A DNA stretch of 64,000 nucleotides from NCBI RefSeq assembly GCF_030053835.1, contig NZ_CP125655.1, forward strand, positions 682,001-746,000. Direction: 5' to 3'. A program made the translations under genes and the position numbers. Below the pieces are notes generated by a model. It made no database searches, was not told where the DNA came from, and saw only the letters and a list, made by a program, of their open reading frames with translations. Positions 16,704 through 63,781 of the stretch are shown one piece after another. This DNA comes from Cellulomonas sp. ES6 (lineage in GTDB: Bacteria; Actinomycetota; Actinomycetes; Actinomycetales; Cellulomonadaceae). Position 1 is the stretch's first letter. Every line of letters begins with the position of its first letter.

Positions 16704-16819
16704 CCCGCCATCGTCGCAGAGTCGTCACGTGGGCGTGCGTGTTCCGGCGCGTCCGGTCGGGTTGAGCGCCGACCCGACGGCTGCCACGGTCGCCGCGCGG
16801 GTCGGCGACCGGACGGTGC

Positions 16820-17210
16820 GGATGAGCTGGCCGGTACGCCGGGTTCTGTCCCCGTGCGCGGTTGCCCCCGCACGGGTGGCGGCCATCCATCTACGACGCA
16901 CGTCGCCGTGCGCCTCCAGCGGCCTACCCGGGAGCTCGGGCGGGCAGCCCTCGAACGCTCCCTGTCTGGCCTTGCTCCGGGTGGGGTTTACCGAGCCGTG
17001 CCGGTCACCCGGCACGCTGGTGGTCTCTTACACCACCGTTTCACCCTTACCCCCTCACGGCCCGGAGGTCGTGCGGGGGCGGTCTGTTCTCTGTGGCACT
17101 GTCCCGCGGGTCACCCCGGGTGGGTGTTACCCACCACCCTGCCCTGTGGAGCCCGGACGTTCCTCGGCGAGCCTTCCGGCTCGACGCGGCCGCCTGGCCA
17201 GCTCATCCGC
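16820..17210 (-). ncRNA. rnpB: RNase P RNA component, bacterial type A
   Basis: On the minus strand the RNA begins and ends with complementary GCGGATGAGCTGGCC/GGCCAGCTCATCCGC (helix P1). The universally conserved core is present: GAGGAACGTCCGGGCTCC near the 5' end, ACAGAGAACAGACCGCC, GTAAGGGTGAAACGGTG, AGAGACCACC, and ACAGAACCCGGCGTACCGGC near the 3' end. RNase P RNA is the catalytic subunit that cuts the 5' leader from tRNA precursors. The length of about 390 nt is normal for actinobacteria. Ends are placed by the P1 pairing. Confidence 0.96.
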
Positions 17211-28837: not shown

Positions 28838-29063
28838 ACAGGCACACTTCAGGGACAAACCAGGCAACGCCCTGGGACATCACCCGATTGCCACGCGACC
28901 CGCCGGGGCAATTCGGGACAAGACGGGACGATCCCGAACCGGGACGTGCGTCCCTTGCCCTGACCTGGGGGATCGACGTGCACGAGTGAGCCGACGCCGG
29001 GTCGTGACGAGCGAGCCGTCCGGGATCGGGTGGGAGGGGGCGGGCGGTAGGTCGGTCGGTCGG

Positions 29064-29137
29064 TGGGCCCGGCCGGTCTCGAACCGGCGACCTCCGCGGT
29101 GTAAGCGCGGCGCTCTGACCAACTGAGCTACAGGCCC
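29064..29137 (-). tRNA. tRNA-Val (anticodon UAC)
   Basis: A 74-nt cloverleaf on the minus strand: acceptor GGGCCTG/CGGGCCC, D-arm GCTC...GAGC, anticodon arm CCGCG-CTTACAC-CGCGG with UAC reading GUA/GUG valine codons, T-arm GCCGG-TTCGAGA-CCGGC, discriminator A. No CCA is encoded. Confidence 0.97.
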
Positions 29138-50372: not shown

Positions 50373-50984
50373 ATGAGCACCACGCCCGGCCCGGCCGACC
50401 CGCGAGCGTCGGCCGGGCCGCGGCGCGTCGACGACCCGCGCCGCGGCACCCGCGACGCCATCATCGACTCGACGGTCGCCCTCATCGCCGACCGCGGGTT
50501 CTCCGCCACGTCGGTCGACGACATCGCGGCTCACGCCGGCGTCGCCAAGGGCAGCGTGTACTACAACTTCGGGTCCAAGGCCGCGCTGTTCGAGGCGGTC
50601 ATCGTCGAGGGCGTCGAGCGCCTGACCGCCGACCTGCGCGGCGCCGCGGATGGCCGCACCGGCCGGGACGCCGTCGGCGCGCTCGTGCACGAGCTGCTCG
50701 CGCAGATCCAGGCCCACCCCGACTTCGCGAAGCTGCTGGTGGCCGAGGTGTTCCGCACCGGCCGCGACTGGCAGGACGCCGTCCGGCAGGTGCGTGACCA
50801 GTCGTTCGCGGTGTTCGCGGAGGTCGTGGCCGCGTCCTGGCCGCACCGTGACCCCTCGATGACCGCGGCGGCCATGTTCGGCGCGACGCTCGTCGCGGGG
50901 CTGGAGTGGCTGGCGTTCCAGCCCGAGCGCACCGTCGCGGACGTCCGGCGGGCCGTGCTGGCCACGCTGCTCGACCCGCTGTAG
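50373..50984 (+). CDS. TetR/AcrR family transcriptional regulator
   Basis: A 203-residue repressor. The N-terminal HTH is TRDAIIDSTVALIADRGFSA, TSVDDIAAHAGVAKGSVYYN, FGSKAALFEAVI (residues about 25-70). The C-terminal ligand domain has the TetR_C helices HELLAQIQAHPDFAKLLVAE and AAMFGATLVAGLEWLAF. Third gene of the operon whose promoter carries the 24-bp palindrome; I infer that it binds there and is induced by a substrate of YhgE/Pip. Confidence 0.92.
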   Translation: MSTTPGPADPRASAGPRRVDDPRRGTRDAIIDSTVALIADRGFSATSVDDIAAHAGVAKGSVYYNFGSKAALFEAVIVEGVERLTADLRGAADGRTGRDAVGALVHELLAQIQAHPDFAKLLVAEVFRTGRDWQDAVRQVRDQSFAVFAEVVAASWPHRDPSMTAAAMFGATLVAGLEWLAFQPERTVADVRRAVLATLLDPL

Positions 50985-51025
50985 CCGCGGCCGCCCGGCT
51001 CGCCTGGCGTGCGGGCCACGAACGG

Positions 51026-51061
51026 CGACGGGCCCCCGAGCTGCTGCTCGGGGGCCCGTCG
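51026..51061. terminator. Bidirectional terminator between tetR and bldC
   Basis: CGACGGGCCCCCGAG (51026-51040) pairs perfectly with 51047-51061 around a CTGCTG loop, between convergent tetR and bldC. Confidence 0.8.
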
Positions 51062-51078
51062 GTGTCAGGGGTGGCGGC

Positions 51079-51303
51079 TCAGAAGCGGCCGGCCTGCTGC
51101 GGGACCGCGCCCAGCAGCTCCATCACCTCGGACTCGAGGAACCGGCGGTGGCCGCCGAGGGTGCGGACGGCGGACAGCTTGCCCGCCTGCGCCCAGCGCG
51201 TGACCGTCTTCGGGTCCACGCGGAACATCACCGCGACCTCGCCCGGCGTGAGCAGGGAGGACGTCGCCTGCGTGGGGAGCTGGGCCTCGAGGGGGTACGT
51301 CAT
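51079..51303 (-). CDS. bldC: BldC-family MerR-type DNA-binding protein
   Basis: A 74-residue protein that is nearly all winged helix-turn-helix: LLTPGEVAVMFRVDPKTVTR, WAQAGKLSAVRTLGGHRRFL, ESEVMELLGAVPQ. It closely matches BldC of Streptomyces, which binds DNA as asymmetric head-to-tail oligomers and delays sporulation. The start ATG 51303 has AAGGAG 7 nt upstream. Its leader contains a cyclic-di-GMP-I riboswitch, so translation is probably under c-di-GMP control. Confidence 0.95.
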   Translation of the reverse strand: MTYPLEAQLPTQATSSLLTPGEVAVMFRVDPKTVTRWAQAGKLSAVRTLGGHRRFLESEVMELLGAVPQQAGRF

Positions 51304-51317
51304 GATGACTCCTTGTC

Positions 51318-51390
51318 GGTTCGGTAGCCCGGCTGACCCCAGGGGTCCCGTGGCTTTGCGTCCCTGCCTCGCAGCAGGTTTGCCGTTGTC
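51318..51390 (-). promoter_or_regulatory. Cyclic-di-GMP-I (GEMM-I) riboswitch in the bldC leader
   Basis: On the minus strand the consensus elements follow in order: GGCAAACC (51385-51378); hairpin CCTGCT-GCGA-GGCAGG with GNRA tetraloop; GGGACGCAAAGCCACGGG (51364-51347); a second hairpin GACCCC/GGGGTC; and AGCCGGGCTACCGA (51334-51321), the receptor and closing strand. The ribosome binding site begins about 10 nt after it, suggesting control of translation. The match to the known GEMM-I core is essentially complete. Confidence 0.93.
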
Positions 51391-51404
51391 GCTCAACGGG
51401 GAGA

Positions 51405-51432
51405 ACTATACAGAAACCGGACAGAACGGCAA
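51405..51432 (-). promoter_or_regulatory. bldC promoter
   Basis: On the minus strand -35 TTGCCG (51432-51427), 16-nt spacer, -10 TATAGT (51410-51405). The transcript would start near 51398, just ahead of the riboswitch, giving a leader of about 95 nt. Confidence 0.75.
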
Positions 51433-51502
51433 GTACCGCCCGAGTTCGGACAGTCGCAGCAGGTCACGCGTGTGCACGCTCACATGCTGGACACCTCACC
51501 GG

Positions 51503-52207
51503 TCAGGCGGCCCCGCCGGATGGGTCGAACCGGTAGCCCATCCCCGGCTCCGTGAGCAGGTACCGCGGCGCCGAGGGGTCCGGCTCCAGCTTCTTGCGCA
51601 GCTGCGACAGGTACAGGCGCAGGTACCCGGTGTCCGTGACGTGCTCCGAGCCCCAGATCTCCCGCAGCAGGGTCTGCCGCGTCACCAGGCGACCCGCGTG
51701 GCGCACGAGGATCTCCAGGATCCGCCACTCCGTCGGCGTCAGCCGCACCGGCTCCGGCGGGCTGCCGTCCCGGGTGGCCGTCGTGGCCGTCAGGTCGATC
51801 GTCACCGCACCGAGGCGCACGAGCGGCTCCGCGTCGCCTCCCGCCGGGGCCGTGGCGCGCCGCGTCAGGGCGCGGATGCGCGCCAGCAGCTCGTCGACGC
51901 CGAAGGGCTTGGTCACGTAGTCGTCGGCGCCCGCGTCCAGCGCCTCGACCTTGTCGGCCGACCCGGTGCGCCCGGAGAGCACCAGGATCGGCGCGCTCGT
52001 CCAGCCCCGCAGCCCCGCGATCACCTCCACGCCGTCCAGGCGCGGCATGCCCAGGTCCAGCAGGTACAGGTCCGGCTTGTGCTCGATCGCCTGGTTCAGG
52101 GCGCTCGTGCCGTCCGTGGCCGTGAGGATCTCGTAGCCCCGGGCGCGCAACGTGATGCGCAGTGCGCGCAGGATCTGCGGGTCGTCGTCGGCGATGAGGA
52201 TCTTCAC
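51503..52207 (-). CDS. kdpE: Response regulator KdpE
   Basis: A 234-residue OmpR-type regulator. Receiver domain: acidic pocket DDD (7-9), phospho-acceptor Asp51 in LYLLDLGMPRLDG, Thr/Ser in VLSGRTG and Lys in YVTKPFGVDELLARIR. Winged helix: LTPTEWRILEILVRHAGRLV, TDTGYLRLYLSQLRKKLE and YLLTEPGMGYRFDP. KdpE activates the kdpFABC potassium pump genes in other bacteria; none are seen here. It overlaps kdpD by four bases. Confidence 0.95.
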   Translation of the reverse strand: MKILIADDDPQILRALRITLRARGYEILTATDGTSALNQAIEHKPDLYLLDLGMPRLDGVEVIAGLRGWTSAPILVLSGRTGSADKVEALDAGADDYVTKPFGVDELLARIRALTRRATAPAGGDAEPLVRLGAVTIDLTATTATRDGSPPEPVRLTPTEWRILEILVRHAGRLVTRQTLLREIWGSEHVTDTGYLRLYLSQLRKKLEPDPSAPRYLLTEPGMGYRFDPSGGAA

Positions 52208-63703: not shown

Positions 63704-63708
63704 GGGTG

Positions 63709-63781
<73 letters not shown>

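Follow-up and report, generated by a model that had tools for sequence, protein, structure and literature searches.

A BldC-family gene behind an aptamer leader

The window, by which we mean the whole stretch of 64,000 nucleotides of Cellulomonas sp. ES6 analysed here, carries on its minus strand a small BldC-family gene whose leader holds a c-di-GMP-I aptamer. The features of the locus, in window coordinates, are:

51503-52207, minus strand: OmpR-type response regulator (domain match), upstream of bldC2 and on the same strand
51405-51432, minus strand: sigma-70-type promoter, with -35 TTGCCG at 51432-51427, a 16-nt spacer and -10 TATAGT at 51410-51405
51394-51397, minus strand: 5' strand of the outer P1 stem, GUUG, with the predicted transcription start (from -10 spacing and kept pairing)
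51319-51394, minus strand: c-di-GMP-I aptamer (RF01051 match at 51320-51394, RF03167 match at 51319-51393)
51315-51318, minus strand: 3' strand of outer P1, CGAC, abutting the Shine-Dalgarno (pairing across 70 leaders)
51309-51314, minus strand: Shine-Dalgarno AAGGAG (from sequence), 5 bases from the ATG at 51303
51079-51303, minus strand: bldC2 (name coined here), 74 aa, ATG start, NF033787 match, read as a BldC-family paralogue
51026-51061, minus strand: 16-bp GC-rich hairpin 3' of the stop (from folding), without a U tract

The promoter, TTGCCG-N16-TATAGT, had been picked out in a preliminary description of this DNA and is the sole sigma-70-type match in 50900-51600; shuffled sequences give a mean of 0.0. 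A scan of the same interval, 50900-51600, found no terminator-like site and gave the hairpin no terminator score; by its predicted fold, the hairpin is a possible transcription end of bldC2. The AATTNNNNC repeat is absent from the 199-nt region upstream, so self-regulation of bldC2 is not suggested. KdpE is the top NCBIfam match of the OmpR-type regulator, under the cut-off of the KdpE model. Elsewhere in the window lie an RNase P class A RNA (16819-17205, minus strand, 291.1 bits), a tRNA-Val (tac; 29062-29137, minus strand), a tRNA-Asn (gtt; 63708-63781, minus strand) and, on the plus strand, an ABC-2-type membrane protein (PF12698, 48194-50359) followed by a TetR-family regulator (PF00440, 50373-50984), likely an efflux pair.

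The aptamer has the ordinary c-di-GMP-I pocket

The Infernal search with RF01051 (c-di-GMP-I), proposed as a check in the preliminary description, gives 68.2 bits, well over the cut-off of 35 (E 4.6e-13 over the whole genome), and 14 control genomes gave zero matches to RF01051 or to RF03167 (c-di-GMP-I-GGC). Of the GEMM-I core elements, the two named there can be seen: the P2 hairpin, whose GNRA loop reads GCGA, and the GACGCAAAGCC block. The aptamer itself thus stands, with its position mended to approximately 51319-51394 and its outer stem extending to 51397 on the 5' side and 51315 on the 3' side. The pair at the ends of the Rfam model (1-80) is non-standard in the window aptamer.

The window aptamer also scores over the cut-off of RF03167 (66.6 bits against 59), and cmscan keeps this model as the clan's best, reporting it alone because clan overlaps get resolved there. 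Could the ligand then be c-AMP-GMP, or whichever compound 'GGC' variants bind, rather than c-di-GMP? We consider this unlikely: RF01051 outscores RF03167 (68.2 vs 66.6 bits), and the window aptamer carries G20, A47 and C92 in Vc2 numbering, a mapping that we take to hold for these aptamers. The RF03167 consensus has a G at the site that matches A47; we take 'GGC' to mean A47G, and what the RF03167 class binds is likewise our presumption. A47 is present in 70/70 bldC2 leaders, and the G47 by which RF03167 would be recognised was found in none of them. More broadly, positions 20/47/48/49/92 read G/A/A/A/C in 66 of the 70 distinct leaders, the exceptions being two A48G (L083 and L086), one C92U (L089) and one G20A (L240). 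This last change also favours another ligand to some extent, since it recurs in three related leaders (L240, L298 and L301) and a passage of a review states that a G20A mutant of c-di-GMP-I can bind cGAMP (PMC7288161). The three G20A aptamers precede one bldC2 and two mini-protein genes (see below). Given the standard pocket bases, the RNA is treated as an ordinary c-di-GMP-I aptamer, and its reading as a c-di-GMP-I riboswitch is supported at the level of sequence.

A conserved outer stem links promoter, aptamer and Shine-Dalgarno

The aptamer makes up nearly the whole bldC2 5' leader. In 70/73 leaders the G that opens the P1 5' strand (GUC or GUUG) lies 6-8 nt past the end of a -10-like hexamer; the last five bases of this hexamer are ATAGT in 63 of these 70, and the other 7 are looser variants that were listed by hand after inspection of the alignment. 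From this spacing, transcription would be expected to start at the P1 G or within about one base of it. When the 70 leaders were given to RNAalifold, the outer P1, a stem of three or four pairs, was placed unprompted, together with one short pairing foreign to the known fold. Across the alignment 209/210 cells of the outer P1 pair, and all three pairs form in 69/70 leaders; slid by up to 4 columns, the stem is complete in 0/70, a comparison in which the true register has the advantage of having been chosen on the same sequences as those tested. In the clade of the window GUUG/CGAC replaces GUC/GAC, so that both strands have changed, which may represent one evolutionary event. On the 3' side, P1 is followed by GGAG (or GGAC, GGAT) after a gap of 0-3 nt in 73/75 leaders; in the window AAGGAG (51314-51309) abuts the P1 3' strand, in agreement with the ribosome binding site that the preliminary description had put just past the aptamer.

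Conservation of this region might have another origin: an in-frame 105-aa ORF (51079-51396) spans the aptamer, its frame running without a stop from a TTG at 51396, and what is conserved could be a longer BldC N-terminus. This is highly improbable, because the distance from aptamer core to ATG varies among leaders (79-95 nt) and not by multiples of three, the stems are kept across leaders, and a good Shine-Dalgarno and ATG come after the aptamer.

BldC2 is a family member but apparently not the conserved BldC

The 74-aa product belongs to the BldC family: it scores 100.9 bits against the NCBIfam BldC model NF033787 (cut-off 77), matches PF12728 and PF00376 (both over cut-off) and is linked by phmmer to the BldC structures 6ama and 6amk. 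Among named records, its nearest relatives are in a MAG labelled Micrococcales (100%) and next in Cellulomonas species. Family membership fits the view, put forward in the preliminary description, that c-di-GMP directly controls the conserved regulator, the aptamer lying in the leader of a bldC orthologue. We now find this very unlikely, because at G000:C1:3103423-3103608 the same genome has a further BldC-like gene, whose product resembles S. coelicolor BldC more than BldC2 does (85% against 74% identity over 54 residues) and which lies beside purM, with no aptamer that we could find. An AIRS (purM-type) neighbour is present at 20/20 aptamer-less Cellulomonas loci fetched (the query locus and 19/19 others) and at 0/25 aptamer-BldC loci, as scanned over approximately 3 kb on either side, with shorter flanks in 4 of the 25. 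Outside this lineage the same neighbour occurs in merely 4/14 loci (two Georgenia, one Helcobacillus and one MAG labelled Streptomycetaceae), so the synteny argument is a local one.

Two diagnostic residues split the sets in the same manner. In S. coelicolor numbering, position 33 is Q in 49/51 proteins of the aptamer set and K in 19/19 canonical ones, and position 40 is V in 51/51 and I in 19/19; the published structural analysis, as far as its excerpts go, has position 33 touching a DNA phosphate and position 40 in the head-to-tail interface (PMC5859096). A BldC tree (59 columns) keeps the aptamer set mostly together, but on one side of a split in just 14% of 200 bootstrap trees and with its deep forks open; since it resolves little, the case for paralogy is carried by synteny, diagnostic residues and copy number. 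By these three measures the window gene is a bldC paralogue, and the orthologue is the aptamer-less second gene beside purM. It follows that c-di-GMP would be wired to an extra BldC and not to the conserved one. That some BldC matches may be laterally acquired paralogues is a point raised in a passage of PMC4255298.

Judged against the head-to-tail and DNA-contact residues given in excerpts of the published work, BldC2 keeps E16, F21, R22, V23, R30, W31, T42, L43, G44, H46, R47 and R48 and departs at K33Q, I40V and A15G (A15 makes a backbone contact). With its contact residues kept apart from these three, BldC2 probably binds BldC-type repeats. A search of the genome with PF21179 (BldD) gave no match, and the controls were equally silent.

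The aptamer-bldC2 pair is nearly universal in the genus

The genus sample comprised 70 genomes, among them a 'same species' genome (G915), and was searched for aptamers under Infernal's stricter filters. Aptamers occur in 68/70 genomes (146 in total) and BldC-like genes in 70/70 (148 in total); exactly one aptamer stands directly before a BldC-like gene in 66/70, with 17-59 nt from aptamer end to the start of the BldC match. Together with the covariance score, this pairing excludes chance. Two genomes have an aptamer and no BldC pair (G930 and G932, 67% and 78% complete), and the search found no aptamer in two others (G176, approximately 100% complete, and G926, 61% complete). BldC-like genes before which no aptamer was found number 82 and are spread over 67/70 genomes.

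In the family sample (200 genomes), aptamers are present in 96 genomes, spread over 7 of 25 genera, and aptamer-BldC pairs in at least 6 of these 7 (Cellulomonas itself; L050-L054; L021; L175; and, by position, G001 with G026, and G008). Matches become sparse beyond the family, with 41/396 genomes in the order sample and 43/394 in the class sample. Of 39 loci inspected outside the family, in sets of 13 and 26, 35 were correctly located (L198, L203, L205 and L206, all of the second set, were mis-located and are not counted), and a BldC motif was seen in none of the 35 within the 2-3 downstream ORFs listed for each locus (L186 had no ORF listed). At class level, 22 located aptamers precede 11 type IV pilin-like, 4 CAP-like, 5 other probably secreted and 2 unassigned proteins, as assigned by a look at the sequences. 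The pilin-like loci (FTLIELLVV...; L189, L192-L196, L199, L202, L204, L209 and L210) have 124-162 nt between aptamer core and start codon, against 79-95 in bldC2 leaders.

A second target: mini-proteins

The genome has one other aptamer (C1:2470269), which lies before a 57-aa ORF (C1 approximately 2470359-2470532, equivalent to L005:4360-4533). This is a general arrangement in the genus: among the 80 aptamers that do not precede a BldC gene, 74 were examined and 67 of them are followed by a small protein. These mini-proteins have 36-60 residues, a tryptophan and a P-x-Q type tail (MDQRG...W...VPAQR), and 69 distinct members were collected, including some outside Cellulomonas but within the family. 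One representative has no Pfam or NCBIfam match, and another has 28 relatives among 5.8 billion proteins, the organism-named ones all being Cellulomonas 'hypothetical protein' entries; the two behave as an uncharacterised family. An AlphaFold model gives one helix (residues 16-42, pLDDT 76.5, pTM 0.41) and no HTH. The outer P1 was seen in merely 9/78 mini-protein leaders by a strict pattern, which may undercount it.

A shared RWA core and P-x-Q-R tail had raised the suspicion that mini-proteins and BldC are homologous; it is not supported, hhalign giving probabilities of 3.3% for the local and 0.4% for the global comparison. Profile searches between the two sets reach E values down to 0.0014 when restricted to those sets alone, with domain scores of approximately 7 bits, and are not counted as evidence.

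Mechanism and sign of control

We propose that the bldC2 transcript would start at the 5' stem of the aptamer, or within about one base of it, and that the aptamer, to judge from its pocket bases, would bind c-di-GMP. Binding would lock the outer P1, which leaves 0-3 nt between its 3' strand and the Shine-Dalgarno GGA, and the locked stem would most likely hinder 30S binding, so that translation of bldC2 would fall at high c-di-GMP. The ligand is probably made, as the genome encodes 13 GGDEF domains. Translational control, which the preliminary description had suggested, is most likely because the aptamer is almost the entire leader; with the ribosome binding site directly after the aptamer and the interval 50900-51600 free of terminator-like sites, P1 control of translation initiation is the simplest mechanism. 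Passages of PMC12452182 likewise describe Actinomycetota riboswitches as tending to be translational. Taken as a whole, a c-di-GMP-I riboswitch that exerts P1-based translational OFF control on bldC2 in Cellulomonas is, in our judgement, the probable explanation of this locus.

The sign of control is the more delicate part, and we lean only slightly towards OFF at high c-di-GMP, provided that the switch works as proposed. The lean comes from the leaders themselves: an ON switch would need a conserved alternative structure, and none was found. In such a switch, the GGAG would pair in the free state with the CU-A-CC of the aptamer 3' core, including the ligand-pairing C, and the ligand would release the Shine-Dalgarno. 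There are hints of this: in the ligand-free folding ensemble of the 73 leaders the CU and CC columns of the conserved element are the commonest partners of GGAG, and the free-state unpaired probability of the Shine-Dalgarno averages 0.32 against a slightly higher 0.41 when the upstream sequence is shuffled (lower in 50/70). However, these columns hold just approximately 0.29 pairing probability per Shine-Dalgarno base, and enforcing the aptamer leaves the Shine-Dalgarno no freer in the thermodynamic model (mean unpaired probability 0.28 against 0.32 free, n = 70; more open in 26/70). Covariation cannot test the complementarity either, since GGAG and CU-A-CC are each fixed for other reasons. 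ON control is thus possible though rather doubtful. By the same token, the modelling of these 70 leaders does not establish that P1 masks the Shine-Dalgarno, and folding models could not call ON versus OFF.

In the favoured explanation, BldC2 would probably act beside the aptamer-less canonical BldC on BldC-type repeats. A bolder scheme, which we offer as speculation with little chance of being right in full, is that the riboswitch doses a K33Q/I40V variant that co-assembles head-to-tail with the housekeeping BldC, while a helical mini-protein, dosed by the second riboswitch, tunes or caps the filament; c-di-GMP would then set the make-up of BldC filaments through RNA and not through a protein.

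Comparison with known systems

Cellulomonas is not known to have a Streptomyces-like sporulation cycle. In nearly the whole genus, an RNA sensor of c-di-GMP appears to be placed before a BldC-type regulator, and the locus would show how the gain of a riboswitch can bring a duplicated regulator under the control of a second messenger. What BldC does in non-sporulating actinomycetes becomes testable through two defined target genes.

The aptamer is a member of the known c-di-GMP-I class; the new part, apparently unreported, is its BldC-type target gene. The open literature of PubMed Central yielded no paper joining c-di-GMP, riboswitch and bldC, nor one joining a c-di-GMP riboswitch, a developmental regulator and Actinobacteria, subscription papers being outside the scope of the search; by their titles, the papers returned for Cellulomonas, riboswitch and c-di-GMP concern other subjects and those for BldC and riboswitch are Streptomyces studies. 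Excerpts of PMC7266159, PMC9481103, PMC5859096, PMC6428758, PMC3766115, PMC7288161 and PMC12452182 make no mention of an aptamer-bldC pairing.

With riboswitches of RF01051, the window RNA shares sequence, fold, pocket bases and position in a 5' leader, but its target is a BldC-family transcription factor, its leader is almost the aptamer alone, and its outer P1 comes as close as 0-3 nt to the Shine-Dalgarno. The c-di-GMP-I loci found at class level precede type IV pilin-like (11/22) or other probably secreted proteins (9/22) instead. The overall architecture, and a score over cut-off, are shared with RF03167, from which the window differs by having A47 where the consensus has G. As for the protein, BldC2 resembles Streptomyces BldC (structures 6ama and 6amk; PMC5859096) in being a one-domain winged HTH, and differs from it as a paralogue that has a promoter and riboswitch to itself, in a set where K33Q and I40V are nearly fixed. 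Finally, in Streptomyces development c-di-GMP acts via the protein BldD, as stated in passages of PMC5859096 and PMC6428758: the same second messenger feeds into a Bld regulator in both cases, through a protein effector there and, as we propose, through a leader RNA here.
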